NCBI GenBank assembly: GCA_001899805.1
Contig: MKWP01000004.1
Coordinates: forward strand, 248,001 to 312,000
Origin: Lysobacterales bacterium 66-474
Lineage (GTDB): Bacteria > Pseudomonadota > Gammaproteobacteria > Xanthomonadales > Rhodanobacteraceae
Direction of reading: 5' to 3'
DNA: 64,000 nt
Under the pieces are notes generated by a model. The model was not told the DNA's origin. It ran no database searches and saw only the letters and a program-made list of their open reading frames with translations. Shown here piece by piece: positions 3,693 to 44,283 of this stretch. Numbering within the stretch: the stretch's first letter is position 1; each line of letters opens with the position of its first letter. The position numbers and the translations under genes are program-made.

Positions 3693-3805
3693 TGCGATCG
3701 TCCCTGATCGCTGCCCCGAATAACCTCGAGGGAATGCCGGCTTCGCGCGCCACGGGACGCCAGAACGGCCGTCCATGGCCTGACTTTTCACAACAGCTTC
3801 TTCGA
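3693..3805 (-). repeat. Dispersed hairpin repeat, copy A
   Basis: Copy of the dispersed element described in the findings. On the minus strand it begins with the CTGTTGTGAAAAGTCAGG block (right end) and finishes with the hairpin GCGATC-AGGGAC-GATCGC at 3711-3694. It lies between two plus-strand genes. Confidence 0.85.
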
Positions 3806-3880
3806 TCGGACACCAAAAGCATGGACACCCGACTCCCTCGATTGCTGACGAGCATCAGGCTTCCCGCGGGGGTGCGCCGG

Positions 3881-3886
3881 TAAAAT
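3881..3886 (+). promoter_or_regulatory. -10 box TAAAAT placed for a leaderless transcript
   Basis: TAAAAT ends six bases before the ATG at 3893. No ribosome binding site precedes that ATG. This fits a leaderless mRNA; no clear -35 box is present. Confidence 0.4.
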
Positions 3887-3892
3887 CGGCAC

Positions 3893-4300
3893 ATGACCGC
3901 GCCCAAGCCCACCGACATCACCCTGCACAGGAAATCGCGCACGCTGGAAGTCGCATTCGACTCCGGCGAACGCTTTGTCCTGCCCGCCGAATACCTGCGG
4001 GTGTATTCACCATCCGCCGAGGTGCAGGGCCACGGGCCCGGCCAGCAGGTGCTGGTCGCGGGCAAACGTGAGGTCGGGATCATGGAACTGCAGCCGGTCG
4101 GCAACTACGCCGTGTCACTGCGCTTCACCGACGGTCACGCCACCGGCATCTACTCGTGGGAAACGCTGCGCGACCTCGGCACCCGCCACGACGAGAACTG
4201 GCAGTCCTATCTCGACGCGCTCGAAACCAGCCATCTCTCGCGCGATCCGACATCCCTGTACGGCCATCCAGTGCCGATGCGGGGACCGAAGGCAAGATGA
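3893..4300 (+). CDS. DUF971 family protein (gamma-butyrobetaine hydroxylase-like N-terminal domain)
   Basis: 135 aa. The protein consists of one DUF971 domain: the early LHRKSRTLEVAFDSGE segment, the LPAEYLRVYSPSAEVQGHG segment and the later IYSWETLRDLG segment are the hallmarks. DUF971 proteins are small, and the same domain forms the N-terminus of gamma-butyrobetaine dioxygenase. Links to iron-sulfur or ubiquinone-related functions have been proposed, but no reaction can be assigned from sequence. In many proteobacteria this gene sits close to hslVU, as here. The ATG is preceded by a TAAAAT box at leaderless distance. Confidence 0.9.
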   Translation: MTAPKPTDITLHRKSRTLEVAFDSGERFVLPAEYLRVYSPSAEVQGHGPGQQVLVAGKREVGIMELQPVGNYAVSLRFTDGHATGIYSWETLRDLGTRHDENWQSYLDALETSHLSRDPTSLYGHPVPMRGPKAR

Positions 4301-4385
4301 GCACCCACGGACCGGAGCAACGCCAGTCAGGCTCCGCCCGCATTGCTCGACTACCCACGCTGCAATCGACATTTCTCTCTAGCCC

Positions 4386-4883
4386 ATGCCGACATCGATC
4401 GAGGTTGCACAAGCTTCCAGTCCGGACCTCGTTGCCCTGGCGCGGGAGTTGTTTCGCGAATACGAACATGCCATCGGAGTGGACCTCGAGTACCAGGGCT
4501 TTGCCGCGGAACTCGCGGCCTTGCCGTTACCCTATGCGCCGCCGGACGGCGCACTGCTGGTCGCGACGGTTGGCGGCAGCACGGCTGGCTGCGTCGCCTT
4601 GCGGCGCATCGGCGCCCATGTCTGCGAAATGAAACGTTTGTACGTGCGCCCCACTTGCCGCGGCATGCGGCTGGGAGAACGGCTGGTCGGCGAAATCATC
4701 GACCACGCACGCCGCGCCGGTTACCAGGAGATCAGGCTGGACACCCTGCCAAGCATGACATCGGCGCAAGGGCTTTATCGTCGCCTGGGGTTCAGGGAAA
4801 TCCCCGCGTACAACGATGCGCATCTGCCGGGCACGCTTTTCTTCGCACTCGCGCTGGAAGGCCGCGACAGCCAGCCGGATTGA
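4386..4883 (+). CDS. GNAT family N-acetyltransferase
   Basis: 165 aa. Single GNAT domain. The acetyl-CoA binding motif A is seen around residues 90-105 (MKRLYVRPTCRGMRLGERLV), with the R-x-x-G-x-G/A-like CRGMRLG pyrophosphate loop. Motif B follows, with the LDTLPSM...LYRRLGFREI segment typical of the family end. It probably transfers an acetyl group from acetyl-CoA to an amine of a small molecule or protein. The substrate is unknown. It lies 85 bases after the DUF971 gene on the same strand. The downstream gene is convergent. Confidence 0.9.
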   Translation: MPTSIEVAQASSPDLVALARELFREYEHAIGVDLEYQGFAAELAALPLPYAPPDGALLVATVGGSTAGCVALRRIGAHVCEMKRLYVRPTCRGMRLGERLVGEIIDHARRAGYQEIRLDTLPSMTSAQGLYRRLGFREIPAYNDAHLPGTLFFALALEGRDSQPD

Positions 4884-4918
4884 ACTTCGATTCGCCCGAT
4901 TGAACCGATGCGGGGCAT

Positions 4919-5413
4919 CTATCCGCGTGCAAGCACGGCTTCGCGCCTTGCAAGGCTCTCCTCCGGCCAATGCTGCTCGCGGTCGTAGTACTCGCGCATC
5001 GCGGGCACCCCTTTGGGCAGGATCACCCAGGGTTGCTTCGACATCGTGAAGATGTGGATGTCGGGTGGAAAGCGATCAGGGTCGTCCAGCGTGCCGACGC
5101 GCACGAACGCAAACAGCGGGCCGGCGCCCGGGTAATGGCTCCACAACGCAACGCGGCATTGCGGACAACGTGCGATGTCCTGGCCCCTGCCACTGTTGGA
5201 CGGCGTCATCACCCCCCCGGGTTCGCCGTGCAGCAACTCGACGCATTCGGTTTCGATCATTGCGTTCAGCGCGAACGCCGATCCGGTTTCACGTTGGCAC
5301 CAGCGGCAATGGCAACAGTGCACGAACAGCGGCGTGCGGACGAGCCTGTAACGAATGAAGCGGCAGTCGCAGCCGCCTTCAAAGGTTTCGGTCAATGCTT
5401 CCAAGGCAATCAC
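4919..5413 (-). CDS. GFA family protein (glutathione-dependent formaldehyde-activating enzyme-like, CENP-V/GFA domain)
   Basis: About 164 aa. The Cys-rich GFA fold is clear: GGCDCRFIRYRL, then VHCCHCRWCQRETGSAF, then ARCPQCRVALWSHYPG give the CxC, CHCxxC and CxxC zinc-binding sets. Despite the family name, most members are not proven to act on formaldehyde, so the function here is open. The start is uncertain. The frame is open far upstream as an antisense shadow of the SNF2 gene. The GTG at 5413 (VIALEALTETFEGGC) is chosen because it has an AAGGCGG-like ribosome site; a TTG at 5404 is the alternative. Confidence 0.85.
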   Translation of the reverse strand: MIALEALTETFEGGCDCRFIRYRLVRTPLFVHCCHCRWCQRETGSAFALNAMIETECVELLHGEPGGVMTPSNSGRGQDIARCPQCRVALWSHYPGAGPLFAFVRVGTLDDPDRFPPDIHIFTMSKQPWVILPKGVPAMREYYDREQHWPEESLARREAVLARG

Positions 5414-5457
5414 CCCATCCGCCTTCGACCCCTGCCCGCACAGGCGAGGGAAGGGAA

Positions 5458-8400
5458 TCAGTCGGTCGCAAACAACGCGTCGAGATCGGTTTCGTCGAAC
5501 GCCAGCTTGTCGCGGGTGCCGCCACCTTCCAGCACGGCCTGGGCGAGTTCGGCCTTGCGTGCCTTCAGGTCCTCGATGCGCTCCTCGACGGTGTCGGCGC
5601 AGATCAGGCGGTACACGAACACCGGCTTGTCCTGTCCGATGCGATGCGCTCGGTCCGCGGCCTGGGTTTCGGCGGCGGGATTCCACCACGGGTCGTAATG
5701 GATCACCGTGTCGGCCGCAGTGAGGTTCAGGCCCACGCCGCCGGCCTTCAGCGACAACAGGAACAGCGGCACCTCGCCATCCTGGAACTTGCGCACGGGT
5801 TCGGCACGATCGCGCGTGTCGCCGGTCAGGGTGACGTATTTCAGGTGCCGGCGATTCAATTCGCGCGAGACCAGCGCCAGCATCTCGGTGAACTGCGAGA
5901 ACAGCAACACGCGCCGGCCTTCGCTCAGCAAGTCCGGCAGCATGTCCATCAGCAACTCGAGCTTGGCCGATTCGCGCACGCCGCGCGCGGATTCGAGCTT
6001 CACGAGGCGTGGATCGCAGCAGGTCTGGCGCAGCTTCAGCAGCGCATCCAGCACGATGATGCCGCTGTGCTCGAGGCCGCGCTGGCGCACCACTTCGCGC
6101 ACTTCCTCGCCCAGGCTGATGCGCAGCGCGTCGTAAAGCTCGCGCTGCTTTCCGGACAACACCACCCGGCGCGCGATCTCGGTCTTGGCCGGCAACTCGG
6201 CAACCACCTGCGTCTTGGTGCGACGCAGGATGAATGGTGCGATCCGATGGTTGAGCCGCGCCTGGCAATCGGCATCGGCCTGGCGTTCGATCGGAATCCG
6301 GTAATGGCGCCGGAACGAGCCCTCGTCGCCGAGCAGGCCCGGCACCGCCAGATCGACCTGCGACCACAGTTCGCCCAGGTGATTCTCCAGCGGCGTGCCG
6401 GTCATGCACATGCGCCGTTTCGCGGCAATCGACAACAACGCGCGGCGCGCCTGGGTGCGCGGATTCTTCACCTGCTGCGCCTCGTCCAGCACCACCAGCG
6501 CGAAGGGCTGTTCGCGCAGCACCGCAAGATCGCGCGGCAACAATGCGTAACTGGTCAGGATCACGTCGTGGCCGGCGAGGCGGTCGAAACTCTTGACGCG
6601 TTCCGGGCCGTGCAGGGTCAACACCTTCAAAGACGGCGCGAAACGCGCCGTTTCGGACTGCCAGTTGGGAATCAGGCTGGTGGGTGCCACGATCAACGCG
6701 GGCTGGGTCAGCGCCGAATTCTGTTTCAGCGCCAGGATGTGGGCGAGCATCTGAACGGTCTTGCCCAGCCCCATGTCGTCGGCCAGCACGCCGCCGAGTC
6801 CCGCGTCGGCCAGTGCGTTCAACCAGCGCAGGCCTTCGCGCTGGTACGGGCGCAGTTCGCCGATCAGGCCTTCCGGCACCGCATCGGAAGCCTTGGCAGC
6901 GGCGTCACGCAGGCGCGTGGTGAACCCGGTCAAATCCCTTGGCGCATCCAGCTTGCCGTTCTTCGGCAGCGCGTCGGAAAACTCCTCCAGCCTGCCCGCC
7001 TGCACCCGGGGAAGGCGCAGCTTGTCGCGCGGATGCGCGAGGTATTCGGCCAGCGGCGCAAGCAATTTGCGCAAGGTCGCCAGCGGCACCGCGACGCGGC
7101 GGCGATCGTCGACCGGCGCGTACCACACGGCATCCTTCGTTTCGTTCTCGGGCGCAGTCAGCGACAGCGTGTGTTCGGACAGTGCGCGCGCGACGGTCGG
7201 CAGCAGGTTGACGCGCTTGCCCTCGACCTCGATGCCCATCTCGAACTCGAACGCTTCGCCGCCATCGTCGGCGCGCGCCACGCCGTACCAGCGCGGCGGC
7301 CCCTCCAGAACCTCGAACGGGAAACTCGACGCGTATTCGACGATGAACCCTTCGTGTTCGAGCTTCTCGCGCAGGCCCAGCCAGCGCGCCGGCGTGTTCA
7401 CCTCGAGCGCGCCCGCATACCCCTTGCCGGGAAACACCCAGGCGTCTTCCGGCAGCGCGTCGGCCATGTCCCACGGCAAGCCTTCGCAATCGACCGCGGG
7501 CGCGAGGCCGAAGGATTCCAGGCGCTCCATCGTCGCCAGTTCCTCGGCGCGCTTGCGCATGATTTCCACCAGATTGCCGTTGCGCACCCGCCGCACGATG
7601 GCCTCGCCGCCCCGTCCCGGCAGCCGCTCGCCGCCATAGTCGAAGGCCAGCCGCGCATACGCGAGCGGCGGCGTGCCGGCGCCGATCCGGGCATGCCGGG
7701 TCAGCGCCTGGAAAATCGTCACCGGCTTGGGCGCGAGATCGGAACGCTGCACCGGCGCAAACATCTGCGGCACGGGAATGCGTGTCGCCCACGACGACAC
7801 GGCCACCCGTTCCGCAAGCGCCGCGGCGTGCTCGGGCGCCAGCGGCGGCGCATCGAGCAACGCAACCTCGGCGGCGGTGCCGTCCAGCGGACCGAGTTCC
7901 GCGCGTTCCGGATCGAGGTACCAAAGCCCACCCACCCTGATCAACCGCTGGTGCGCGGGCAGTTTCGGCAACAGGCGTTGGCGGCCGTCGCGTTCGAGCT
8001 GCCAGTCCCATTCCAGCGGACGCGGTTTGCCGATACCCAGCCGCAGCCCCGCCACGCCGCCCAGCAAGGCGGGCGCGTGCTCCAGCAGGTCGCGCAGCAG
8101 GGCATCCCCGAAAACCCCCGACAAATGCGCGTAGCTGCGTCCCTTGCGCTGGGTCTGGGGCAAGCCGAGCACGCTGGCCGCGAGCCGGGTTTCCGCTTCC
8201 GGCAGCGCCGCGTGCGGCAACTGCTTCGAGTCCAGCGGCAAGGCCCGTCCCAGCCTGCCCTTGGCGACGGTTTCCAGCAACACCGGCGCGACTTCGATGC
8301 GCGCCAGCGGCAATTCGTCCTGCACCAGTTCCAGCAGGAAGCCCAGCGTTGCGGCGTGCACGCCATCCGCATCCTCGGCCGTCGCGGCGAGCAGGCGCGT

Positions 8401-8484
8401 CCACTCGGCCGGCAACGGCGTGGCTGCCGTCTTCGCAGTCGCGCGTGCGAGCGGCACTTCGTCTTGGGTACTGCGGTGCTGCAT
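5458..8484 (-). CDS. SNF2-family DEAD/DEAH-box helicase (HepA/RapA-like ATPase)
   Basis: About 1008 aa. The N-terminal half (about 550 residues) has no motif I can name. The ATPase follows: Walker A DDMGLGKT near residue 570, the DEAQ Walker B near 665, then a C-terminal helicase domain with VLLFSQF near 860 and DRAHRIGQ near 945. Together these define the Swi2/Snf2 family, double-stranded DNA translocases that remodel protein-DNA complexes; the bacterial target is unknown. The start is at ATG 8484, which has AAAGG eight bases upstream. An in-frame ATG at 8520 gives a 12-residue longer form but lacks a ribosome site and nearly touches a dispersed repeat. The gene follows gpsA on the same strand. 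Confidence 0.93.
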   Translation of the reverse strand: MQHRSTQDEVPLARATAKTAATPLPAEWTRLLAATAEDADGVHAATLGFLLELVQDELPLARIEVAPVLLETVAKGRLGRALPLDSKQLPHAALPEAETRLAASVLGLPQTQRKGRSYAHLSGVFGDALLRDLLEHAPALLGGVAGLRLGIGKPRPLEWDWQLERDGRQRLLPKLPAHQRLIRVGGLWYLDPERAELGPLDGTAAEVALLDAPPLAPEHAAALAERVAVSSWATRIPVPQMFAPVQRSDLAPKPVTIFQALTRHARIGAGTPPLAYARLAFDYGGERLPGRGGEAIVRRVRNGNLVEIMRKRAEELATMERLESFGLAPAVDCEGLPWDMADALPEDAWVFPGKGYAGALEVNTPARWLGLREKLEHEGFIVEYASSFPFEVLEGPPRWYGVARADDGGEAFEFEMGIEVEGKRVNLLPTVARALSEHTLSLTAPENETKDAVWYAPVDDRRRVAVPLATLRKLLAPLAEYLAHPRDKLRLPRVQAGRLEEFSDALPKNGKLDAPRDLTGFTTRLRDAAAKASDAVPEGLIGELRPYQREGLRWLNALADAGLGGVLADDMGLGKTVQMLAHILALKQNSALTQPALIVAPTSLIPNWQSETARFAPSLKVLTLHGPERVKSFDRLAGHDVILTSYALLPRDLAVLREQPFALVVLDEAQQVKNPRTQARRALLSIAAKRRMCMTGTPLENHLGELWSQVDLAVPGLLGDEGSFRRHYRIPIERQADADCQARLNHRIAPFILRRTKTQVVAELPAKTEIARRVVLSGKQRELYDALRISLGEEVREVVRQRGLEHSGIIVLDALLKLRQTCCDPRLVKLESARGVRESAKLELLMDMLPDLLSEGRRVLLFSQFTEMLALVSRELNRRHLKYVTLTGDTRDRAEPVRKFQDGEVPLFLLSLKAGGVGLNLTAADTVIHYDPWWNPAAETQAADRAHRIGQDKPVFVYRLICADTVEERIEDLKARKAELAQAVLEGGGTRDKLAFDETDLDALFATD

Positions 8485-8530
8485 CCGCGGAACCTTTGAA
8501 TGCTCAAAAGGCTCAAGCATAGCGTACTTT

Positions 8531-8636
8531 TGCGATCATCCATGATCGCTGCACCCCATGGCTGCCAAGTCCCTGCCTGGTATTCGCCCGACGGAACACC
8601 AGGACGGAGTTCCCCGTCCCGACCTTTCCCGTGCTC
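8531..8636 (-). repeat. Dispersed hairpin repeat, copy B
   Basis: Lies between gpsA (stop 8642) and the SNF2 gene, in the transcription direction of both. The end hairpin is GCGATC-ATGGAT-GATCGC, extendable to an 8-bp stem with a 2-base loop. The left block is degenerate (GGGAAAGGTCGGGACGGGG). Confidence 0.8.
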
Positions 8637-8641
8637 GTGGT

Positions 8642-9658
8642 TCAGGCGAACAGGTTTGCCGGGTATTCCGGCTTGCGCTCGCGCGCGAGCAGCGAATGCA
8701 GCGCATCGGTCGGAGTCATGTCACCACGCAGCACCGCTTGGACGTGTTGCGAGATCGGCAGGTCCAGATCGTGTCGGGCCGCCAGCCGCATCACCTCGTC
8801 GGCGGTCACCGCGCCTTCGACCACCTGTCCGATGTCGGCCAATGCCTGCTGCAACGGCACGCCCTGCCCCAGGGCGAAGCCGAAGCGATAGTTGCGCGAC
8901 AGTTGCCCGGTGCAGGTGAGCACCAGGTCGCCGAGGCCGGCCAGGCCCATCAGGGTTTGCGGCTGGGCGCCCAGCGCGGCGCCAAGCCGCAGCATTTCAT
9001 TCATGCCGCGCGTGATCAGCCCCGCGCGGGCGTTCAACCCGAGTTGCATGCCGTCGGCCACCCCGGTCGCGACCGCCAGCACGTTCTTCATCGCGCCCCC
9101 GAGTTCGGCGCCCAGCATGTCGTTGCCGGTGTAGGCGCGGAAGGTGTGGCTGTGCAGCATTTCCGCCACGCGATGCGCGAACGCATCGTCACCGGAATGC
9201 ACGGTGACCGCGGTGGGCATGCCCGCCGCGACTTCGCGCGCGAACGACGGCCCCGTCACCACTGCGGCCGGCGTGCCCGGCAGGCGTTCGGCCACCAGTT
9301 CATGCAGGAAACGGCCGGTGCCGGGCTCGAAGCCCTTGGTGGCCCAGGCATACCCTGCGTGTTTCGGCAGCAGCGGTGCCGCTTCATCCAGCATCGCGTG
9401 GAAGGCGTGGCTGGGCACCGCCACCAGCGCCACATCGACGCCGTGAAGCGCTTCGGCCAGATCCGGCATGCAGGCCAGTTCCGCCGGCAGTTGCAGGTCC
9501 GGCAGGTAACGTTGGTTGCGATGCTCCGCCGCGATCCGCGCCAGTGCGCCCGCATTGCGGCCCCACAGGCGGGTCTCGATGCCATTGCCGCACAACAATG
9601 CGGCCAGCGCGGTGCCCCACGAGCCGGCGCCGAGGACGGCGACCGTCGCGCGAGGCAT
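8642..9658 (-). CDS. gpsA: Glycerol-3-phosphate dehydrogenase [NAD(P)+]
   Basis: 338 aa, normal length. It reduces dihydroxyacetone phosphate to sn-glycerol 3-phosphate, the backbone for phospholipids, in the cytoplasm. The Rossmann motif GAGSWGTA is at residues 10-17. The family segments [36 protein letters not shown] and [16 protein letters not shown] (containing the catalytic Lys) are intact, as is the [12 protein letters not shown] segment. secB lies one base upstream on the same strand; the secB-gpsA order is common in Gammaproteobacteria, so they are probably co-transcribed. Confidence 0.98.
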
Positions 9659-9659
9659 G

Positions 9660-10163
9660 TCAGGCGTTCAAGGTCGGCTTGGCGTCGCCGAGGCCGATCT
9701 GCCCCTGCTGCTGGCGTTGCTGCTCGGCGTACAGGGCATCGAAATTGATCGGCTGCAGCAGCAGCGGCGGGAAGCCGCCGTTCAGGACCAGGTCGGAGAT
9801 GACCTGGCGCGCAAACGGAAACAGCACGTTCGGACAGTAGGTGGCCAGCACCACCCCGAGGTTTTCCTGATCGAACCCCACGAACGAGAACACGCCGGCC
9901 TGGTGCACCTCGGCCAGGTACGCGGTGCGCTCGTTCAGGGTGCAAGTGACCGTCAAGGTCAACACCACTTCGTAGTTGTCGCCCTCGATCGGGCTGGCCT
10001 TGTGGCTGAGGTTCAACTGGACCTGCGGCTGGCCTTCCTCCTGGAACACCTTCGGCGCATTCGGAACCTCGAACGAGACGTCGCGCGCGTAGATCTTCTG
10101 CAGCGCCATCTGCATCTGGGGGGCGGCTTGGCCGTTGCTCGGGGCCGGGGTCACTTCTGCCAT
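9660..10163 (-). CDS. secB: Protein-export chaperone SecB
   Basis: 167 aa. SecB is a tetrameric cytoplasmic chaperone that holds preproteins unfolded and hands them to SecA. Family segments are clear: [21 protein letters not shown], the LNLSHK region, [10 protein letters not shown], the [12 protein letters not shown] segment and the [30 protein letters not shown] core. The ATG at 10163 ([11 protein letters not shown]) is chosen over an in-frame TTG 30 bases upstream. The C-terminal tail is Gln-rich. It precedes gpsA with a one-base gap. Confidence 0.97.
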
Positions 10164-10239
10164 GTTCGTAAAGCTCCACTCGGGGAAGGTCAAAGGTGGG
10201 AATTGTCACACACCACGGCCGTTCTTGCACGCGTCCGGA

Positions 10240-10268
10240 TTGCCCGAAAACCCCTTGCCTGCTATATT
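10240..10268 (+). promoter_or_regulatory. Promoter of rpmB-rpmG
   Basis: TTGCCC (10240-10245) and TATATT (10263-10268) are separated by exactly 17 bases, and the -10 box is extended (TGCTATATT). This is the best sigma-70-type promoter in the window. It gives a leader of about 140 bases before rpmB. Confidence 0.75.
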
Positions 10269-10272
10269 GCGC

Positions 10273-10327
10273 GGCTGTCTTCCAGCCGGCCCGGGCTTTC
10301 CGGGCATCCCGCGGTGCGACGCGGGAT
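10273..10327 (+). promoter_or_regulatory. Three consecutive hairpins in the rpmB leader
   Basis: Directly downstream of the promoter, three stems follow one another: GGCTG/CAGCC (10273-10287), GCCCGG/CCGGGC (10289-10305) and ATCCCGCG/CGCGGGAT (10306-10327, 8 bp with a 6-base loop). Such a structured leader before a ribosomal-protein operon could be an autoregulatory site, but that role is only inferred. Confidence 0.5.
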
Positions 10328-10412
10328 CGATGCGGCGCTTCCGACATTCGCGCAGGCTTCAACGTCGGGCCGATCTTCCGCGGGCCACGCGGACCACCAT
10401 GAGGAGAATGCC

Positions 10413-10649: not shown

Positions 10650-10660
10650 GGAGAACTCCC

Positions 10661-10825: not shown

Positions 10826-10868
10826 CGCATCGGCGCGCGCACGCAGTGCGCGCCTTTGCCGATGCGTC

Positions 10869-10898
10869 ATCCCGGAATCGCGAAGCGATATCCGGGAT
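10869..10898. repeat. Imperfect palindrome ATCCCGGA...TCCGGGAT
   Basis: The arms ATCCCGGAATCGC and GCGATATCCGGGAT flank GAA. This resembles the ends of the ATCCCGG-type intergenic repeats of Xanthomonadales (compare 35159-35268). It lies between rpmG and its terminator. Confidence 0.6.
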
Positions 10899-10915
10899 CG
10901 GTTTGAGGAACAGCC

Positions 10916-10944: not shown

Positions 10945-10950
10945 CAGACA

Positions 10951-18397: not shown

Positions 18398-18502
18398 TGC
18401 GATCATCCATGATCGCTGCTCGATGAAGTGCTTTCGCGGAAGAAAGTCGTCCGGATCGGGAGCATCGGAACGGACATCCCCGTCCTGACTTTCCACGAAT
18501 GC
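18398..18502 (-). repeat. Dispersed hairpin repeat, copy C
   Basis: The minus-strand copy starts with CGTGGAAAGTCAGGACGGGG (right) and ends with GCGATC-ATGGAT-GATCGC (18416-18399). Together with copy D it brackets the gene at 18525-19052 with both hairpins facing outwards. Confidence 0.85.
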
Positions 18503-18524
18503 CACCGTTGCGTCGGAGAGCATC

Positions 18525-19052
18525 ATGTCGCCGAATCTCATTGCCCCCATCGTGATTGCACCGCTGATCGTGTGGCGCCTGTATGCACGCACGCGCCGAA
18601 GTTTCGGCCGCCAGCCGATCCAGCCGAAGCGCATGTGGACGCGCGTGGGCTTTCTCTCGGTGGTTACGCTGCTGGTCGCCTCGCAGGGATTTGTCGATCC
18701 ACGCCTCGCGACGGGATTGGGCGCGGGACTCGTCGGAGGCGTCGTGCTCGGGATGCTGGCTTTGAAGCTGACCCGCTTCGAAATCGACGGCCGGAACGAT
18801 TGTTACTTTCCGAACCCGTGGATCGGCATGACGCTGACTGCGCTGTTCATCGGGCGCCTGCTGTACCGCTTCATGGTGCTGTATCCGCAGATGACGCACG
18901 CCGCCGCCGGCGGCCATGCGGCGTATCAGCGCAGCCCGCTCACCATGGCGATCCTGGGATTGTTGCTGGGTTATTACATCGCCTATTACGCGGGACTGTT
19001 GCTGCACCACCGGCGGGTCAGCATGGACGCCCGTTCGAAGCAGCTTTCGTGA
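18525..19052 (+). CDS. DUF1453/CcdC-like integral membrane protein
   Basis: 175 aa with about five membrane segments: LIAPIVIAPLIVWRLYAR, VGFLSVVTLLVASQGF, ATGLGAGLVGGVVLGMLAL, GMTLTALFIGRLLYRFMVLY and TMAILGLLLGYYIAYYAGLL. The pattern with a central FEIDGRNDCYFPNPWIG loop resembles DUF1453/CcdC-type proteins. Function is unknown. The start has a GGAGAG ribosome site. The last six codons and the stop lie inside dispersed repeat D, so the repeat supplies the C-terminus. Confidence 0.75.
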   Translation: MSPNLIAPIVIAPLIVWRLYARTRRSFGRQPIQPKRMWTRVGFLSVVTLLVASQGFVDPRLATGLGAGLVGGVVLGMLALKLTRFEIDGRNDCYFPNPWIGMTLTALFIGRLLYRFMVLYPQMTHAAAGGHAAYQRSPLTMAILGLLLGYYIAYYAGLLLHHRRVSMDARSKQLS

Positions 19053-19174
19053 GAAGTCAGGCCAGGGAGTGGTTTGGCCATGGACGGCGGCTCTTGGCCG
19101 TGGCAGTGCTTGTGACCCGCTGCGATCCCAAGCCAACCGTCAGCTAGCCGAAGGAGCGATCACGGACGATCGCA

Positions 19175-19176
<2 letters not shown>
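19035..19176 (+). repeat. Dispersed hairpin repeat, copy D
   Basis: Begins GTTCGAAGCAGCTTTCGTGA inside the 3' end of the preceding gene, continues GAAGTCAGGCCAGGGAG and GGCCATGGACGGCGG, and ends with GCGATC-ACGGAC-GATCGC (19156-19173), two bases before the stop of glnK. Confidence 0.85.
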
Positions 19177-19923
<747 letters not shown>

Positions 19924-28961: not shown

Positions 28962-29105
28962 GTTCGAAGCGGTTGTTGTGAAAAGTCAGGCCACGGAGCT
29001 CTTGGCCATGGATGGCGGCAGTAAGGGCCGTTCTGGTCTCCACACCATCGAGTTTGTTTGTTCGCCGTACCGCCGAACGAAGCGCCGATCGGGGACGATC
29101 GCATA
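28962..29105 (+). repeat. Dispersed hairpin repeat, copy F
   Basis: Starts GTTCGAAGCGGTTGTTGTGA, continues AAAGTCAGGCCACGGAG and GGCCATGGATGGCGG, and ends with a CGATC...GATCG hairpin (variant stem CGATC-GGGGA-CGATCG). It separates the convergent molybdoenzyme and VTT genes. Confidence 0.85.
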
Positions 29106-35828: not shown

Positions 35829-35945
35829 GTTCAAAGCGGCTGTTGTGGAAAGTCAGTCCAGGGAGGGACGTTCTGGAGCCACATGACCGATACGATATGG
35901 CTCCACCGCTGACTCCGGCGGGGCAGCGATCAGGGATGATCGCAC
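35829..35945 (+). repeat. Dispersed hairpin repeat, copy G
   Basis: GTTCAAAGCGGCTGTTGTGG starts the element; AAAGTCAGTCCAGGGAGGG and GACGTTCTGG follow. The end is GCGATC-AGGGAT-GATCGC (35926-35943). It lies between dtd and rpoD on their strand. Confidence 0.88.
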
Positions 35946-36048: not shown

Positions 36049-36076
36049 GTGCGGTCTTGTCGTCGCGGTGCCCTCC

Positions 36077-37945
<1,869 letters not shown>

Positions 37946-37995
37946 CAGCGGTTCCAGAAACTACCACGCTCGGCAACTTGCGCGCCGGCGGTGCT

Positions 37996-38114
37996 CGGCA
38001 TCCTCATGTACTGACATGTACACTCCGGTGCCTGCGCTTACTCGCCACATCCATGTGGCTCGCCCGGCGGGCCACCTGCGGCGTTCAAATCGGCAGTCCC
38101 TGCCGATTTAGTCG
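37996..38114. repeat. Multi-hairpin intergenic repeat with CCTGCGGCGTTC-stem-AGTCG, copy 2
   Basis: Starts with CATGTACTGACATGTACA, continues through GCCACAT-CC-ATGTGGC (7-bp stem) and ends CCTGCGGCGTTC (38075-38086), the 9-bp stem AAATCGGCA/TGCCGATTT (38087-38109) and AGTCG. It may end the rpoD transcript. The same flanks with another stem are at 26340-26377. Confidence 0.75.
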
Positions 38115-38170
38115 GCGTCACGCAATCTGCCGTCGCTCGCTACGTTTCTGAAACCGCTGTCATTGCTCGA

Positions 38171-38176
38171 TATTTT
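38171..38176 (+). promoter_or_regulatory. -10 box TATTTT placed for a leaderless transcript
   Basis: TATTTT ends five bases before the ATG at 38182; there is no ribosome site. This is the third such arrangement in the window. Confidence 0.35.
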
Positions 38177-38181
38177 CGATC

Positions 38182-39003
38182 ATGAACCGCATCGCCGTTT
38201 TCGTTGACGCCGGCTACTTCTACGCTTCCGCCAGCGAATTGCTGTTCGGCACGCCGTTGCGGCGTGGCGAGTTGCGCCTCGCCAACGCCGAGTTCGTGCA
38301 ATACCTCGCGCAATCGGCGGAAGCCGTCGGCGGCTGCCCGCTGCTGCGCATCTACTGGTACGACGGTACCAACTCGGGCCCGACCGCCGCGCACCTTGCG
38401 ATGGCCTACCTCGACAACATCAAGCTGCGGCTCGGCTTCGTCAACCAGTCGGGCGAGCAGAAGGGCGTGGACGGACTGATCTTTTCCGACCTCACCAACC
38501 TCGCGCGCAACCACGCCATCTCCGACGCACTGCTGCTGGCCGGCGACGAGGACCTGCGCGTGGGCGTGCAGCAGGCGCAGGAACACGGCATCCGCGTGCA
38601 CCTGCTGGGCGTGGAGCCGAAAGATCCTTCGGGCAACCAGTCCGCCGCGCTGCAACGCGAAGCCGACACTCGCCGCCAGCTCGACGCCGCCGCGCTTGGG
38701 CGGTTCCTGTTCCGCCGCGAATACGCGGCTGTGTCGATCGCCGAAGCGGAAGCCGGTACACAGGACGCGGACGCCGTTCACAACCTCGCACGCATGCAGG
38801 AACTCGCCAACGAATACGCGGCGACGCTCGACGCCAGCCAGCGCGAACTGATCCTGGCGTTGCCCGAACGCACCCCGCTGCCGCACGAACTCGACCGCGA
38901 GCTGCTGCTGCGCGCCAGCGAACTGCTCGGCCGCAAACTGGAAGAAACCGAAAAGCGCACCCTGCGCGGAGCCTTGCGCAGCACAGTTACCACTTCACTC
39001 TGA
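38182..39003 (+). CDS. NYN domain-containing protein (PIN-like, DUF88/LabA-type)
   Basis: 273 aa. The N-terminal NYN domain starts IAVFVDAGYFYASASELLFG with the first acidic residue. KGVDGLIFSDLTNLA carries the second and LLLAGDEDLRVGVQQAQEHG the third, so the PIN-like metal site appears complete. NYN proteins are predicted ribonucleases acting on RNA. The last 90 residues are a helical extension of unknown role. The gene follows rpoD after a structured repeat. Confidence 0.85.
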   Translation: MNRIAVFVDAGYFYASASELLFGTPLRRGELRLANAEFVQYLAQSAEAVGGCPLLRIYWYDGTNSGPTAAHLAMAYLDNIKLRLGFVNQSGEQKGVDGLIFSDLTNLARNHAISDALLLAGDEDLRVGVQQAQEHGIRVHLLGVEPKDPSGNQSAALQREADTRRQLDAAALGRFLFRREYAAVSIAEAEAGTQDADAVHNLARMQELANEYAATLDASQRELILALPERTPLPHELDRELLLRASELLGRKLEETEKRTLRGALRSTVTTSL

Positions 39004-39113
39004 GCTCAACCTTGAGAGTCCCCGCCACCGGCCAGTCTCCATGCCCGCGGGCACCAAGATGTCGCGCCATGGGACGGTGGACATCGAGCCGGTTATCCTA
39101 GGCGGCCATCTGC

Positions 39114-39187
39114 GGGCCTGTAGCACAATCGGTTAGTGCAGGAGACTCATAATCTCTTGGTTCCAGGTTCGAGTCCTGGCGGGGTGA
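39114..39187 (+). pseudogene. Defective copy of the CAT-anticodon tRNA
   Basis: Bases 39110-39183 are identical to 39302-39375, which includes the D-arm, the anticodon arm (CTCATAA loop) and the T-arm. The 3' acceptor strand then reads CGGGGTGA instead of CGGGCCCA. Only four of the seven acceptor pairs remain, so the copy should not fold or be charged normally. Confidence 0.75.
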
Positions 39188-39196
39188 GGGTCCGCG

Positions 39197-39256
39197 CTTT
39201 CGGACTGCCGGTGGCAGTCCGAGCGGAACCGAACGCCGTGCCACGGATGGCACGGC
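39197..39256 (+). repeat. Two strong hairpins in the spacer between the tRNA copies
   Basis: CGGACTGCC-GGT-GGCAGTCCG (39201-39221) and GCCGTGCCA-CGGA-TGGCACGGC (39235-39256) are both perfect 9-bp stems. The first is framed by CCGC/GCGG. They may end transcription of the first copy or be traces of the duplication. Confidence 0.6.
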
Positions 39257-39305
39257 CGGCGCCACGCACCATGGATGGGTTGGGCGCGAATAAAATGATC
39301 ACTGC

Positions 39306-39379
39306 GGGCCTGTAGCACAATCGGTTAGTGCAGGAGACTCATAATCTCTTGGTTCCAGGTTCGAGTCCTGGCGGGCCCA
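39306..39379 (+). tRNA. tRNA with CAT anticodon, probably tRNA-Ile2 (k2C-modified)
   Basis: 74 bases fold to a full cloverleaf: acceptor GGGCCTG/CGGGCCC, anticodon arm GGAGA-CTCATAA-TCTCT, T-arm CCAGG-TTCGAGT-CCTGG, discriminator A. CCA is not encoded. The anticodon arm and variable loop resemble E. coli ileX (GACTCATAATC...CTTGGT) more than either Met tRNA. I therefore prefer tRNA-Ile2, read as AUA after lysidine modification; automatic tools may call it tRNA-Met. Confidence 0.85.
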
Positions 39380-39395
39380 TCATCCCCTTCCAGTG

Positions 39396-41687
39396 TCAGT
39401 GCGAACTGCCCGCACTCGCAGGCATTGCCGACGAAGCGGGCGCCAACGACGATGCCGAATCCGCCACGCTCACGGGCCGGGTGAAGGCTTCCTTCGGCAG
39501 CACCTCGTGGGCGAGCCTGGGTTGCTTCTCCAGCAAGGCGACCTGGTCGGCCATGATGTGCGCGGCTTCGTCGAGCTCGATGTCCTTGGCCTGCTTGGCG
39601 GCCTTTTCGCGCGCCACCGAAGCCCTGACGTTGCGCTCGCCCGGGGTCAGGCCATCGTCGGGTTCCAGGTTGACGGCGGAGACGTCGCCCAGCGCCTCGC
39701 GGCGCTTCTTGAACGTGGCATCCTGCGCGTCCTGCTGCTTGCGCTCGGTTTCGCGCACCTGGTAGTTGAGCGACACGCTCTTCTGGTCGTGCAGCTTGCG
39801 CGCGGCGGCCAACTCGTCCAGCAGCAGTTGCCATGCGGGATCGGTCCTGGCGCGCGCGTCGTGTTCCGCGGTCAGCGGCGCGATCAGCTGTTTCTGGTCG
39901 GCGACCGCGGTGTACTCGGCGGGCGGGATGTGGGTCCACTTCAACGCGTTCGGGTAGCTCGATTCGCCGTAATCCTTGTAGCCGATCGAATGCGGGAACA
40001 GGATGTCGGGCGTGACGCCGTGCAATTGCGTGGAGTCGCCGTCGACCCGGAAGAACTCGGCGACGGTCATCTTGAGTTCGCCGAAGGTCGGCGTGTTGTT
40101 CATCGCGAGCTGGTCGAGGCTGGTGAGGTTCTGCACCGTGCCCTTGCCGAAGGTCTGCTCGCCGATGATCAGGCCGCGGCCATAATCCTGGATCGCGGCG
40201 GTGAAGATTTCACTCGCCGACGCGGACCCACGGTTGATCAGCACCGCCATCGGGCCGGTCCACAGCATCTTCTCGTCCGAATCCTGTTCCTCGACCTGGC
40301 CGCGGCTGTCGCGCACCTGCACCACCGGGCCCTTGCCGGTGAACAGGCCGGACAGGTTCACCGCTTCCGACAGCGACCCGCCGCCGTTGTCGCGCAGGTC
40401 CACGACCACCGCCGACACTTTCTGCTGCTTGAGTTCGGCCAGCAGCTTGGCGACGTCGCGCGAAGCGCTCTTGTAATCGGGATCGCCGCGCCGGCGGGCG
40501 TCGAAGTCCTCGTAGAAACTCGGCAGGTCGATCACGCCGACCTTGATGGTGCGCGCGCCCTCCTTGACGTCGATGACCTTCTTCTTGGCGGCCTGCTCGG
40601 CGATGGTGACCTTCTTGCGGACCACGGTGACGATCACCGGCTTGGCGTCGGGGCCGCCCTCGGCGGGCAGGATCTCGATCCGCACCACGGTGCCCTTGTG
40701 GCCGCGGATCTTGGCGACCACGTCGTCGATGCGCCAACCGACGGTGTCGACGATGGGGCCGCACTCGCCCTGCCCCACGCCCACGATCTTGTCGCCGACC
40801 TCCAACTTGCCGGATTTCGCGGCCGGGCCGCCCGGCACGATTTCGCGGATCACGGTGTACTCGTCGTGTTCCTGCAGCACCGCGCCGATGCCCTCCAGCG
40901 AGAGCTTCATGGTGATGTCGAAGTTCTGGCTGGCGCGCGGCCCGAAATAGTTGGTGTGCGGGTCGATCGCCATCGCGTACGCGTTCATGAAGGTCTGGAA
41001 CACGTCCTCGCTGTCGAGCTGGTGCACGCGGTCGAGGTAGGTTTCGTAGCGACGCGACAAGGTCTTGCGGATTTCCGCGTCGTCCTTGCCGGCCAGCTTC
41101 AGGCGAATCCAGTCGTTCTCGACGCGCTGCTTCCACAATGCGTCGAGCGCGGCGGTGTCCGTGGCCCACGCCGCCTTGTCGCGATCGAAGGTGTAGGTGC
41201 CGTCGGTATCGAGGTTGAAGCCTTGCTTGAGCAGCGCCAATGCGTACGTGGTGCGTTCACCGGCGCGCTTCTCGTACAGGTTGAAGATCGCGAACGGAAT
41301 CGACATGTCGCCTTTCCAGATCGCGTCGTCGAGCTTGTCGCGATCGGGCGCGAACTGGTTGACGTCGGCCTGGGTGAAGAACAGTTTGCTGCCGTCGAGC
41401 GCCTTGAAGTAGGCGTCGAAGATCTTCGCCGACATCGCATCGTCGAGCGGCAACGCCTCGTACTGGAAGCGCGTCAGCAGGCGTGCCGCGAGGATCGCGG
41501 CCTGGCCTTGCGCCGCGGTCGGTTCGAGCACCGGCGCCGACGTCATCTTGTACTTGGCGACCGGTGCGGCCGGTGCGCTGGCGGACGAAGCCGGGCAGGC
41601 CGTGGTGGACGCGGGCGCGGCGTTTTGCGCGCGCGCGCCAAGTGAAACGAAGAGTGCAATCAGGACGACGAAGACACGCTGCAACAT
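39396..41687 (-). CDS. prc: Carboxy-terminal processing (tail-specific) periplasmic protease Prc
   Basis: 763 aa. Signal peptide MLQRVFVVLIALFVSLGARA. The N-terminal helical domain is followed by a PDZ domain (VLQEHDEYTVIREIVPGGPA through VGVGQGECGPIVD). The protease core has the LRDNGGGSLSEAVN segment, the nucleophile Ser in NRGSASASEIF and the Lys in FGKGTVQN. Prc degrades misfolded or tagged periplasmic proteins and trims penicillin-binding proteins. It is alone between a terminator (41748-41774) and the tRNA. The ribosome site GAGGAAAG precedes the ATG. Confidence 0.97.
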   Translation of the reverse strand: MLQRVFVVLIALFVSLGARAQNAAPASTTACPASSASAPAAPVAKYKMTSAPVLEPTAAQGQAAILAARLLTRFQYEALPLDDAMSAKIFDAYFKALDGSKLFFTQADVNQFAPDRDKLDDAIWKGDMSIPFAIFNLYEKRAGERTTYALALLKQGFNLDTDGTYTFDRDKAAWATDTAALDALWKQRVENDWIRLKLAGKDDAEIRKTLSRRYETYLDRVHQLDSEDVFQTFMNAYAMAIDPHTNYFGPRASQNFDITMKLSLEGIGAVLQEHDEYTVIREIVPGGPAAKSGKLEVGDKIVGVGQGECGPIVDTVGWRIDDVVAKIRGHKGTVVRIEILPAEGGPDAKPVIVTVVRKKVTIAEQAAKKKVIDVKEGARTIKVGVIDLPSFYEDFDARRRGDPDYKSASRDVAKLLAELKQQKVSAVVVDLRDNGGGSLSEAVNLSGLFTGKGPVVQVRDSRGQVEEQDSDEKMLWTGPMAVLINRGSASASEIFTAAIQDYGRGLIIGEQTFGKGTVQNLTSLDQLAMNNTPTFGELKMTVAEFFRVDGDSTQLHGVTPDILFPHSIGYKDYGESSYPNALKWTHIPPAEYTAVADQKQLIAPLTAEHDARARTDPAWQLLLDELAAARKLHDQKSVSLNYQVRETERKQQDAQDATFKKRREALGDVSAVNLEPDDGLTPGERNVRASVAREKAAKQAKDIELDEAAHIMADQVALLEKQPRLAHEVLPKEAFTRPVSVADSASSLAPASSAMPASAGSSH

Positions 41688-41747
41688 GGACTTTCCTCGA
41701 CGATGCGGGCGGTGCCGATCGTGCGCGCCGGGGCGCGGGCATCAATG

Positions 41748-41774
41748 AAAAAAGACGCCAGCCTTTCGCCGGCG
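41748..41774 (-). terminator. Intrinsic terminator of the mltB-rlpA-dacC-ybeD-lipB operon
   Basis: On the minus strand CGCCGGC-GAAA-GGCTGGCG forms a 7-bp stem (one G-U pair) with a GAAA tetraloop, followed by TCTTTTTT. It lies after the lipB stop (41868) and before prc, so prc has its own transcript. Confidence 0.8.
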
Positions 41775-41867
41775 CATTCGGTTGCGCGGTGCGGGCGGGT
41801 GAGGCTCGTCCGGGCGCAATCCGACACTACGGTATCGGAAAATACCGGTGCGGGATACGGCCGCAAG

Positions 41868-42527
41868 TCATGCTGCGGCACGGGGCAGGGCGGGTTCCGC
41901 ATCCTGCGGCGACAATCCGAATTGTCGGCCCAGCTCAACAATCAGTACATCCTCGACATCGCCCAGCCGTGACGGGCCGCCCAAGTCTAGCATTTGCGTG
42001 ACCTGAAGCCCCGCGTAACCACAGGGATTGATGCGGTGGAAGGGTTCCAGGTCCATCGCGATGTTGAAGGCGAGGCCATGGAAGCTGCGGCCGCGGCGCA
42101 CCCGCAGGCCTAGCGCCGCGATCTTGGCCTCACCCACGTACACGCCGGGCGCGCCCTCGCGGCGGGCGGCGACGATGTTCCACCCGCCCAGGGTATCGAT
42201 GATGGCCTGCTCGATCCGGTGCACCAGCTCGCGCACGCCGATTTTCAACCTGCGCAGGTCCAGCAGCGGATAGGCGACGATCTGGCCGGGACCGTGGTAG
42301 GTCACCTGCCCGCCGCGGTCGACGTGGATCACCGGGATGTCGCCCGGCGCCAGCACGTGTTCGGGCCTGCCGGCCTGCCCCAGCGTGAACACCGGATCGT
42401 GTTCCACCAGCCACAATTCATCGGGCGTGTCCGCTCCGCGCGCGTCGGTGAAGGACTGCATCGCGTGCCAGACGGGTTCATACGACTGGCGGCCGAAGTG
42501 GCGGACGAGCAACGGACGATCGCTCAC
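41868..42527 (-). CDS. lipB: Octanoyltransferase LipB
   Basis: 219 aa. It transfers octanoyl groups from acyl carrier protein to lipoyl domains, the first step of lipoate synthesis. The family block [20 protein letters not shown] and the catalytic region ([23 protein letters not shown] with its Lys, and INPCGYAG with its Cys) are complete. It follows ybeD by four bases, as commonly found; lipA is not in view. It closes the operon before an intrinsic terminator. Confidence 0.97.
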
Positions 42528-42531
42528 TGCT

Positions 42532-42819
42532 TCACAACGTGTAGTGGATGTCCGGGTGCGCGCGCAGCGCGGCGTGCGCCTCCTCGTACTTCTCGCGCGA
42601 GGGGCAGTTGAACACCATGCTCACCGATACGTACTTGCCCTGGCTCGAGGATCGCTCGCGCACGCTGGCGTCCAGCACCGTGAGGCCGATTTCGCGCAGG
42701 ATTTCCGAAACGCGCTCGCGCAGGTTCGCATTGGCATTGCCCATCGCGGTGATCTCGAAGCTGCCGGGGAACTGGAAGCCCTGGCCTTCGTTCTTCTCGA
42801 TGTCGCCGAGTTCGCGCAT
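42532..42819 (-). CDS. ybeD: YbeD family protein (DUF493)
   Basis: 95 aa. A small ferredoxin-like alpha/beta protein with [16 protein letters not shown] and [23 protein letters not shown], typical of DUF493. It contains one Cys. The molecular role is unsettled (a structural resemblance to allosteric ACT-like domains has been noted for the family). It lies between dacC and lipB with gaps of 9 and 4 bases, a position conserved in Gammaproteobacteria. Confidence 0.93.
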
Positions 42820-42828
42820 TCGCCTATT

Positions 42829-44127
42829 TTATTGGCTCGCGGCCGGCGGCGCCACGCTTGATGACGACGAGACCGTCACGGTGGGCGCCGGCGTGGTGGT
42901 GGTGCCGTTGCCGCGGTGGAACAGCAGCAGGATCGCGTCCCACAGCCGCTTGAAGAAGCCGCCCTGCGGCGCGTCCTGCAACACCACCAGCGGTTCCGAA
43001 ACCAGCGGTTTGCCGTCGAACGTCACGTTCAGCGTGCCGACCCGCTGGCCCTTGGTGAACGGCGCGACCAGCCGCTGCGGGATTTCCAGCGTGGCCTGCA
43101 ACTGGTCGTAGCGGCCGCGCGGGATCGTGACCGACGCGTCCTCGGCGATGCCGAGTTCAAGCGTGTTGGTCGCGCCCTTCCACAGCCGCGGCGTGGCCAG
43201 CGCCTGGCCGGCGGCATACAGCGTGTGGGTGCGGTAGAAGTTGAAGCCCCAGTTGAGCAGGGCTTCGTCGCCCGTGGCCGCGGCGTTCATGTCGGGGCCG
43301 CCCAGGGTCACCGCGATCAGGCGCATGCCGTTGCGCAACGCCGAGGCGGCCAGGCAGAAGCCGGCTTCCTTGGTCGAGCCGGTCTTGATGCCGTCCACGG
43401 AAGGATCGGTCCACAGCAAGGTGTTGCGGTTGTGCTGGGTGATGCCGTTCCACTCGAATGATTTGATCGCCGAGATCTTGTACTGCTCGGGAAAATTCCT
43501 GATCAGCGCGCGCGACAGGATCGCGATGTCATGCGCGGTGCTGTAATGGTCGGGCGCGGGATAGCCCGACGCATTCACGAAATGCGTGCCGGTCATGCCG
43601 AGGCGCTGGGCGTAGGTGTTCATCATGTCGGAAAACGCCTGCTCGGAACCGGCGACGTGCTCGGCCAGTGCGATCGCGGCGTCGTTGCCGGACTGGATGA
43701 TCATGCCGTACAGCAGGTCCTTCAGCTGGACCTCCGAATTCAGTTTCAGGAAACTGGTCGAACCATCGGTGCCTGCGCCGCCCGCGCGCCAGGCGTGCTC
43801 CGAGATGTGGACCTGGTCGTTCATGTGGATCTTGCCGGCCGCGAGTTCGGCGTTGACCACGTACTCGGTCATGACCTTGGTCAGCGAAGCCGGCGCCCGG
43901 CGTGCATCCATGTCGTGTTCGGCCAGGATCTGGCCGTTGGCGTAATCCATCAGCACCCATGCGGCGGCGTTGGGTTGCGGCGCGGGTGGAATCGGCGTCT
44001 GCGGCGTGGTCGGTAGCGGCTTGGGCGGCACCGCGGGTTTCGGCGGCAGCGGCGGCGTCTGCGCGATCAGCGCGCCGGTAAATGCGACCAGACCCATCAA
44101 CGACAGCGAACGCAGGATTTTTTTCAT
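42829..44127 (-). CDS. dacC: D-alanyl-D-alanine carboxypeptidase (PBP5/6 type)
   Basis: 432 aa. The signal peptide is followed by a Pro-rich linker (PPLPPKPAVPPKPLPTTPQT). The penicillin-binding motifs are PASLTKVM (S-x-x-K), SGN (IIQSGND) and KTG (GIKTGST). The C-terminal PBP5 domain (PFTKGQRVGTLNV) and an end segment rich in Thr/Ser/Val follow; the usual membrane-anchor helix appears as FFKRLWDAILLLFHR, upstream of the tail. It trims stem-peptide D-Ala and regulates peptidoglycan cross-linking. Symbol tentative between dacA and dacC. Confidence 0.95.
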   Translation of the reverse strand: MKKILRSLSLMGLVAFTGALIAQTPPLPPKPAVPPKPLPTTPQTPIPPAPQPNAAAWVLMDYANGQILAEHDMDARRAPASLTKVMTEYVVNAELAAGKIHMNDQVHISEHAWRAGGAGTDGSTSFLKLNSEVQLKDLLYGMIIQSGNDAAIALAEHVAGSEQAFSDMMNTYAQRLGMTGTHFVNASGYPAPDHYSTAHDIAILSRALIRNFPEQYKISAIKSFEWNGITQHNRNTLLWTDPSVDGIKTGSTKEAGFCLAASALRNGMRLIAVTLGGPDMNAAATGDEALLNWGFNFYRTHTLYAAGQALATPRLWKGATNTLELGIAEDASVTIPRGRYDQLQATLEIPQRLVAPFTKGQRVGTLNVTFDGKPLVSEPLVVLQDAPQGGFFKRLWDAILLLFHRGNGTTTTPAPTVTVSSSSSVAPPAASQ

Positions 44128-44143
44128 GGTGCCTCTTCGTGTA

Positions 44144-44283
44144 TGCGATCTTCCCTGATCGCTGCATTGAAAATCCGGCTATGGTACGCGACCCATTCGC
44201 GGACATGAAGTCCGGTACGCGCATCCAAAGCTGCCATCCCTGGACAGAGCTCCGTCCCGACTTTCCACGACGGCCGCTTCGCC
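44144..44283 (-). repeat. Dispersed hairpin repeat, copy H
   Basis: On the minus strand it starts GGCGAAGCGGCCGTCGTGGA, continues AAGTCGGGACGGAGCTC and ends with GCGATC-AGGGAA-GATCGC (44162-44145). It lies in the rlpA-dacC gap of a same-strand operon. Confidence 0.85.

Follow-up and report, generated by a model that had tools for sequence, protein, structure and literature searches.

A dispersed hairpin repeat of Lysobacterales bacterium 66-474 as a putative RNA docking module for CsrA

The genome of Lysobacterales bacterium 66-474 (3.73 Mb in total, labeled G000 below) carries a family of dispersed, mostly intergenic elements with hairpins whose loops mostly read ANGGAN, and we analyzed this family in a window of 64,000 nt on contig MKWP01000004.1 (the window being that whole stretch) and across the genome. 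We propose that the element is a dispersed family resembling repetitive extragenic palindromes (REPs), the unit of which is a putative RNA docking module for the regulator CsrA (RsmA), a reading that, as far as sequence can carry it, we consider evenly poised between right and wrong. There is good evidence, from the loop rule, covariation and conservation in place, that what selection maintains is the hairpin with its ANGGAX loop, and we infer that CsrA is the most likely reader of such a hairpin.

Structure and copies of the element

An initial annotation of the window had described seven copies of the element and had proposed a covariance-model search of the genome, with chance alignment through the hairpin as the way in which the family could fail. 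The exact terminal-hairpin pattern, GCGATCANGGANGATCGC, matches 51 times in the genome and the same pattern reversed not once, so chance alignment is excluded and the element family is real; the pattern also explains all 6 palindromes detected in the window. A covariance model (R1), seeded with 44 of the 51 exact copies (7 were left out, 2 and then 5), gave 91 genome matches at the search threshold of E<=0.01, 10 of these in the window. Seven of the 10 are the copies already described, all found within 0-9 nt of the coordinates claimed, and the others form a tandem array of three at 19557-19912 (array E), which is probably what the annotation had meant by a partial eighth copy, mentioned without coordinates and with the letter E missing from its series.

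The copies fall into two length classes, ~114 and ~140 nt, and share one order of parts: a left block, hairpin 1 (with an extra hairpin in the long class), a spacer, the terminal hairpin and a tail. The left block is close to TCGAAGCGGCTGTTGTGAAAAGT, with a mean identity of 0.66 between copies, and the A/T-rich tail after the terminal hairpin is close to CAAATAATGC. Hairpin 1 reads CAGGCC-ANGGAN-GGCC, with a bulge GTTC and a closing TG, and long-class copies have an additional hairpin, GCC-ATGGAT-GGC, within it, giving two hairpins per full copy in the short class and three in the long. The middle of the element, which had been called nearly free, is so in sequence, the spacers being near random between copies (mean identity 0.35 versus 0.32 shuffled), but not in length, which is 48-50 nt in 70 of 85 copies. 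At this spacer identity a recent common origin of all copies was rejected. A structured spacer was rejected too, as on neither strand does folding exceed that of dinucleotide shuffles (mean z 0.01 and -0.07 over 85 copies, shorter spacers and duplicate rows being dropped), as was a helix between the left block and GGCCGTTC hinted at by one fold, which has 0 both-side changes and does not exceed shuffles.

In the published high-affinity CsrA/RsmE site, as given in PMC4005645, an ANGGAX hexaloop sits directly on the stem with N and X looped out. Most element loops are ANGGAX hexaloops with a C-G closing pair, as in that site, a link between loop and hexaloop that the initial annotation did not make and that is added here. 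Its loop rule, A-N-GG-A-N, carries over to the genome, with ANGGAN in the terminal loop of 78 of the 90 distinct model-found copies, and the loop-closing C-G pair is retained in 87 of the 88 copies with letters. The stem that it had called constant, GCGATC/GATCGC, stands for the window, where six copies have the exact GCGATC-ANGGAN-GATCGC and copy F deviates, but not beyond it: among the 90 copies, 55 terminal stems are GCGATC/GATCGC, 13 are fully compensated (7 GCGTTC/GAACGC, 4 GTGATC/GATCAC and 2 others), 8 contain wobble pairs and 14 have mismatches or gaps. Full compensation is therefore found in 13 of the 35 non-standard stems, and most of them are not compensated. The loop of hairpin 1 begins with ANGGA in 66 of 90 copies, and at one of its pairs both sides have changed in 22 copies. 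Over the whole structure there are 58 both-side-change cells versus 13.5 in shuffles, with 0 of 500 shuffles as high, and a control in which the partner was slid by 1-3 columns gave 2-10. Since the seed stems were selected as perfect, their invariance in the seed is circular; the stem and covariation counts include the model-found copies, across which the stems covary.

The copies in the window are as follows.

Copy A: 3693-3805, minus strand, short class; terminal hairpin 3694-3711; 97.9 bits. The stop codon of the neighboring gene 3078-3692 (plus strand), which is without Pfam match, abuts it.
Copy B: 8531-8645, minus strand, short class with a degenerate left part; terminal hairpin 8532-8549; 52.2 bits. 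Flanked (Pfam) by an SNF2-type helicase gene and a glycerol-3-phosphate dehydrogenase gene.
Copy C: 18398-18510, minus strand, short class; terminal hairpin 18399-18416; 81.0 bits. Flanked by a formamidopyrimidine-DNA glycosylase gene and a gene without Pfam match.
Copy D: 19035-19174, plus strand, long class with the extra ANGGA hairpin; terminal hairpin 19156-19173; 74.7 bits.
Copy E1: 19557-19696, plus strand, array unit 1, long class; GCGTTC-ATGGAC-GAACGC at 19678-19695; 70.8 bits.
Copy E2: 19692-19804 (C4:267692-267804), plus strand, array unit 2; terminal hairpin 19786-19803; 69.8 bits.
Copy E3: 19800-19912, plus strand, array unit 3; terminal hairpin 19894-19911; 78.6 bits.
Copy F: 28964-29103, plus strand, long class; CCGATC-GGGGAC-GATCGC at 29085-29102; 80.4 bits.
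Copy G: 35831-35944, plus strand, short class; terminal hairpin 35926-35943; 98.4 bits. Upstream of a sigma-70 type gene (Pfam) at 36077-37945 (plus strand).
Copy H: 44144-44282, minus strand, long class; terminal hairpin 44145-44162; 76.0 bits. Upstream of a D-alanyl-D-alanine carboxypeptidase gene (Pfam) at 42829-44127 (minus strand).
Separate ANGGA hairpin, not a copy: 39235-39256, plus strand; GCCGTGCCACGGATGGCACGGC, between two near-identical tRNA genes.

Array E, between D and F, has the hairpin GCGTTC-ATGGAC-GAACGC, one arm of which is altered in the middle unit. A P-II gene (19175-19513, minus strand) is enclosed by copies, D abutting its stop and array E lying upstream of its start. 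The separate hairpin is part of a composite stretch at 39235-39290, GCCGTGCCACGGATGGCACGGC followed by CACCATGGATGGGT, between the tRNA genes 39114-39187 and 39306-39379; similar composite ANGGA stretches, some fused to the element, occur at loci L008, L038, L260, L265 and L267. A different short repeat of ~40 nt, at ~10865-10905, has several 95-100% matches in the relative G005 and one match each in G003 and G008.

Conservation in place and turnover

The relative G004 has flanks ~88% identical to those of G000 and 58 model matches, of which six were not fetched (five of them below 45 bits) and one was not recovered, so that 51 distinct copies were used. Twenty-three of the 51 pair with a G000 copy in the same place and orientation, two of these pairs being tandem G004 units matched to one G000 copy. 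Across the 23 pairs, identity is 391/414 in the terminal hairpin, 761/1189 in the spacer and 429/538 in the left block. Broken down, the differences are 0/69 in GGA, 2/23 in A, 9/276 in the stem, 12/46 in N and X, 428/1189 in the spacer and 109/538 in the left block, figures to be read with the caveat that the model prefers good hairpins and that low-scoring copies were excluded. N and X differ more often than stem, A and GGA together (p 4.7e-7) and are not distinguishable from the spacer (p 0.21), and the hairpin without them is kept far better than the left block (11/368 versus 109/538, p 5.9e-16).

In many of these pairs the spacers are hardly more alike than unrelated ones, so a shared place may not always reflect a single insertion, and for this reason we also took a subset of 9 clear orthologues with a spacer identity of at least 0.66. 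In these, stem, A and GGA differ at 3/144 sites versus 91/456 in the spacer (p 5.6e-9), and the left block, with 35/209 differing, departs from the hairpin (p 3.1e-6) and not from the spacer (p 0.34). The terminal hairpin is thus the best-kept part, the freedom of N and X being clear in the 23-pair set only, and the hairpins of single copies appear to be under selection.

Some comparisons in place weigh against the docking of CsrA. Over the 23 pairs the left block, too, has changed less than the spacer (p 2.8e-11), and in the 9 pairs N and X (2/18) are not significantly freer than stem, A and GGA (p 0.095). When the seven sites were compared in several relatives, only copy B between G000 and G006 (spacer identity 0.78) and copy D between G000 and G003 (0.76) exceeded the null maximum of 0.66, and in these two the hairpin has changed as much as the spacer (6/18 and 5/18 positions, respectively), two of the changes in the G006 hairpin compensating each other. 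The G004 pair set points the opposite way to these two pairs.

The family turns over. The initial annotation had suggested looking for empty sites in close relatives, and short gaps are seen at sites A (35 nt in G004 versus 191 here), B (19 in G004 versus 116 here, and short also in G014 and G009), G (34 in G004 versus 209 here) and F (30 in G014 versus 164 here). Site A is filled in G010, and site B is filled in G010, G005 and, in altered form, G006; the place of copy D is also occupied in G003, G012 and G014. At site G the element is inverted in G012 and G007. Copy F has a close paralogue on another contig (G000:C16:20634-20746, spacer identity 0.90). The unit number of array E varies: G014 and G009 have a single unit there, G004 and G005 two, and G003 three, with none seen in G013. 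Decayed copies, a further point against selection for docking, exist at sites C and F in G010. Target-site duplications were looked for, and the flanks were too diverged to fix the insertion junctions. In G012, copies C and D were considered as mutual duplicates because an unusual hairpin 1 is shared by the two, which was not supported, their spacer identity of 0.62 lying within the null. At sites F and G in relatives (L271, L272, L274 and L283), other inverted repeats, CCCCTTCCGCAGGAAGGGG-like and AGCCCAACG-like, stand where the element is absent.

The expansion is centered on one genus. All 16 genomes of the own genus have from 20 to at least 56 matches (counts near 55 being lower bounds), compared with 1-10 in 10 of 21 genomes from the rest of the family and 3 each in 2 of 24 from the rest of the order. 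A hairpin scan of named genomes found the pattern, among the matches listed (80 of at least 113), in Rhodanobacter, Dokdonella, Frateuria and Rudaea and also in unrelated taxa; 53 of the 80 loci, picked by title, were scored with the model, and among these the matches above 80 bits fall in records titled as metagenome-assembled genomes. Rhodanobacter and other records carry a compact form, GAAAAGTGCGGCC-ATGGAT-GGCCGC, then 14-15 nt, then GCGATC-ANGGAN-GATCGC (19 of the 20 arrays found), and its two ANGGA hairpins speak for docking. At L092, L132 and L158, from records whose titles give Rhodanobacteraceae bacterium, Rhodanobacter and Dokdonella, a gene ending in ...HGMQLG has its stop 27-52 nt away from a long-spacer copy, and L110 is similar upstream of the element; this location near what appears to be the same gene in different genera suggests either long retention or repeated arrival.

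Such turnover would be expected if mobility were the whole explanation, the hairpins being recognized by some transposase or other enzyme and their conservation reflecting selection for copying. The short gaps at A, B and G in G004 and at F in G014, the inversion at site G, the paralogue on a different contig, the one to three array units depending on species, the decayed copies, the single-genus expansion (16 of 16 genomes, versus 0-10 matches in the 21 others of the family) and the left block being kept better than the spacer over the 23 pairs all fit this explanation. However, old copies would gain no protection from a need to be copied, and their hairpins being kept in place argues against it, stem, A and GGA differing far less there than the left block in both pair sets; the two loop letters that vary are, moreover, those for which CsrA has no requirement. 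Neither was a vehicle found: the RAYT/Y1 transposase family PF01797 is absent from the genome at E<=0.001 (the same search was positive in 5 of 14 control genomes), and the consensus ends are, by inspection, not inverted repeats. Carriage by viruses, plasmids or phages was rejected, the best model score among 37 viral loci with the hairpin pattern being 26.5 bits, mostly over the hairpin end only, with no plasmid or phage match (one copy each as query). We consider mobility alone an unlikely account. The initial annotation had offered a small mobile unit or a structured site kept by selection, and both halves find support, the first in presence, absence and inversion and the second in the hairpins kept in place, while a mechanism of movement was not found.

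Placement of the copies and transcription

As the annotation had stated, the copies are intergenic or touch gene ends: 87 of the 89 examined lie between gene calls, made with a simple codon-score caller, many of them at a stop codon, and 2 fell inside a call. Where the neighbors are in tandem, and with the element read from left to right, 42 copies are antisense and 13 sense (p 1e-4); 17 are convergent and 15 divergent. The same bias holds for the G004 copies (31 antisense, 7 sense) and for the 28 of them without an orthologue found here (18 antisense, 3 sense). A sense gene stands on the left of 30 of the 87 copies, and transcripts of these genes could run into them; the rest need antisense transcription or, if divergent, a start of their own. 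For the latter, sigma-70-like promoter scores into the copies equal those of shuffles (6.44 versus 6.59), other promoter types lying outside this test. The antisense bias and the promoter scores count among the points against CsrA docking. The antisense bias may have arisen because sense-strand copies in operons, which would bring CsrA control, were removed.

These placements fit another reading, in which the other strand does the work as a REP-like hairpin at the 3' end of the message after the stop, stabilizing the message or tuning termination, with ANGGA being the complement of a conserved NUCCNU loop. A converging right-hand neighbor is present at 60 copies; its stop lies between -15 and +13 nt of the hairpin end at 49 of them, 35 of these at 0-4 nt. 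The antisense bias is repeated in G004, and pairing errors over 119 copies (30 G-U, 38 A-C) show no preference for the ANGGA strand, which is a point against CsrA docking as well. However, invariant loop letters are not required of a stabilizer or terminator, and still GGA is unchanged in the 23 pairs whereas N and X are not, a variation that this reading leaves unexplained. In addition, 28 of the 87 copies lack a converging right-hand neighbor, and compact copies lie both ways relative to their neighbors (8 --, 6 ++ and 5 +-). We know of no binding partner for a NUCCNU loop, and we regard action of the other strand as rather improbable. Separately, at L239, L262, L266 and four copies (stop at -15), the neighbor's TGA stop lies inside the terminal hairpin, at -5 or -15 nt.

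Intrinsic termination would also place hairpins beside stop codons, as seen here. Nevertheless, on the ANGGA strand no U-run follows the hairpin in the tail near CAAATAATGC, a Rho-independent terminator thus being absent there, which again does not help CsrA docking; on the other strand, what comes after the hairpin is the spacer, which has no shared sequence; and termination has no need for fixed loop letters. That the copies are intrinsic terminators is very improbable.

CsrA docking and known systems

Docking by CsrA requires a CsrA protein, and the genome has one csrA match, at 92.3 bits, with a frame that, by eye, looks canonical and lies next to an alanyl-tRNA-synthetase-like frame. With the elements masked, ANGGAN is found in 7 of 152 intergenic versus 1 of 512 coding hairpins with a 6-bp stem and a six-base loop (464 kb; p 1.9e-4), and it is the second commonest of 256 intergenic loop classes; in the window alone, with 5-bp stems, it is found in 5 of 58 intergenic versus 0 of 262 coding hairpins. 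The stems of these hairpins differ, though GGCC recurs in several, and some of the 7 could be degenerate element copies that escaped masking, which reduces what this enrichment can say for CsrA.

Folding is a further weak point for docking. Four stretches of this genome, folded as single sequences, gave z from -1.30 to 0.44; in their minimum-energy folds the terminal hairpin is seen twice and hairpin 1 with an open ANGGA loop once. Only the two Rhodanobacter stretches exceed shuffles in folding (z -2.03 and -3.38), and in the tandem one of them the two hairpins 1 pair with each other. Detection by the model is, moreover, biased toward good hairpins. The CsrA reading also leaves the near-fixed spacer length of ~49 nt and the left block unexplained, and does not account for the movement of copies or their antisense bias.

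The initial annotation knew of no name for the element, and indeed it is an unlisted repeat: we found no paper on such a repeat in the open-licence literature and no Rfam match, the window giving only two tRNAs at gathering score and the stretches scanned around copies none. The CsrB/CsrC and RsmX/Y/Z decoys resemble it in carrying several ANGGA hairpin loops on one RNA, and the loop and closing-pair rule of RsmE applies to both (PMC4005645), but the decoys are encoded by few genes whereas the element has ~90 dispersed copies with no promoter or terminator found. RsmZ, the one decoy family searched genome-wide (CsrB, CsrC, RsmX and RsmY were not), scored below cut-off on a Rhodanobacter locus (23.3 versus 44 bits) and in this genome (16.2 bits), and an RsmZ gene in this genome was rejected.

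The closest functional parallel is RsmU of Xanthomonas, described in PMC7694677 as an RsmA-binding small RNA cut from a 3' untranslated region, sequestering RsmA and reported by its authors from Xanthomonas only. Like the element, it is a GGA-motif RNA from the 3' region of a gene; by that description it differs in being a single locus, whereas the element is repeated and often antisense to its neighbor. The same paper reports that RsmU RNA with mutated GGA still bound RsmA, so GGA content alone does not settle binding, which again tells against docking. The TwoAYGGAY RNA (RF01731), which PMC4333381 describes as a proposed ligand of CsrA on account of such a loop, likewise has two hairpins with a GGA hexaloop; the element differs in that its second loop base is any letter and in being a dispersed repeat, and RF01731 gave no match in the window or the other stretches scanned.

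REPs associated with RAYT transposases are likewise dispersed intergenic hairpins, often touching stops or supplying them, their ends being able to provide stop codons (PMC3733652). The element differs in its length of ~114-140 nt, its two to three hairpins and its fixed loop letters, and by inspection its consensus has no GTAG or CGTC tag beside a 20-40 nt palindrome, a REP trait. A RAYT-driven REP was rejected on the absence of PF01797 from the genome. Of the traits of a miniature inverted-repeat transposable element, the element shows presence and absence between relatives, its ends not being inverted repeats.

If CsrA is indeed the reader, each full copy would fold into two hairpins, or three if long, presenting ANGGAX on C-G-closed stems, and a transcript crossing a copy on the ANGGA strand would offer CsrA a place to dock. 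With ~90 copies of 2-3 sites each, the family could act in sum as a distributed reservoir or decoy that titrates CsrA, and single copies could bring individual transcripts under CsrA control.

The usual decoys of CsrA are a few dedicated small RNAs or RNAs derived from untranslated regions. A more far-reaching and more tentative possibility is that the dispersing repeat forms a genome-wide CsrA network, its docking modules lying mostly on antisense and 3'-end transcripts, supplementing or replacing decoy small RNA genes in one genus and being retained by selection on ANGGAX. If this is true, a spreading element would give a global post-transcriptional regulator many more binding sites, in ~90 places. 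It would also be a candidate antagonist of CsrA, none having been found for this group in the open-licence literature, with dozens of orthologous hairpins, GGA fixed and N and X variable, serving as a natural test set.

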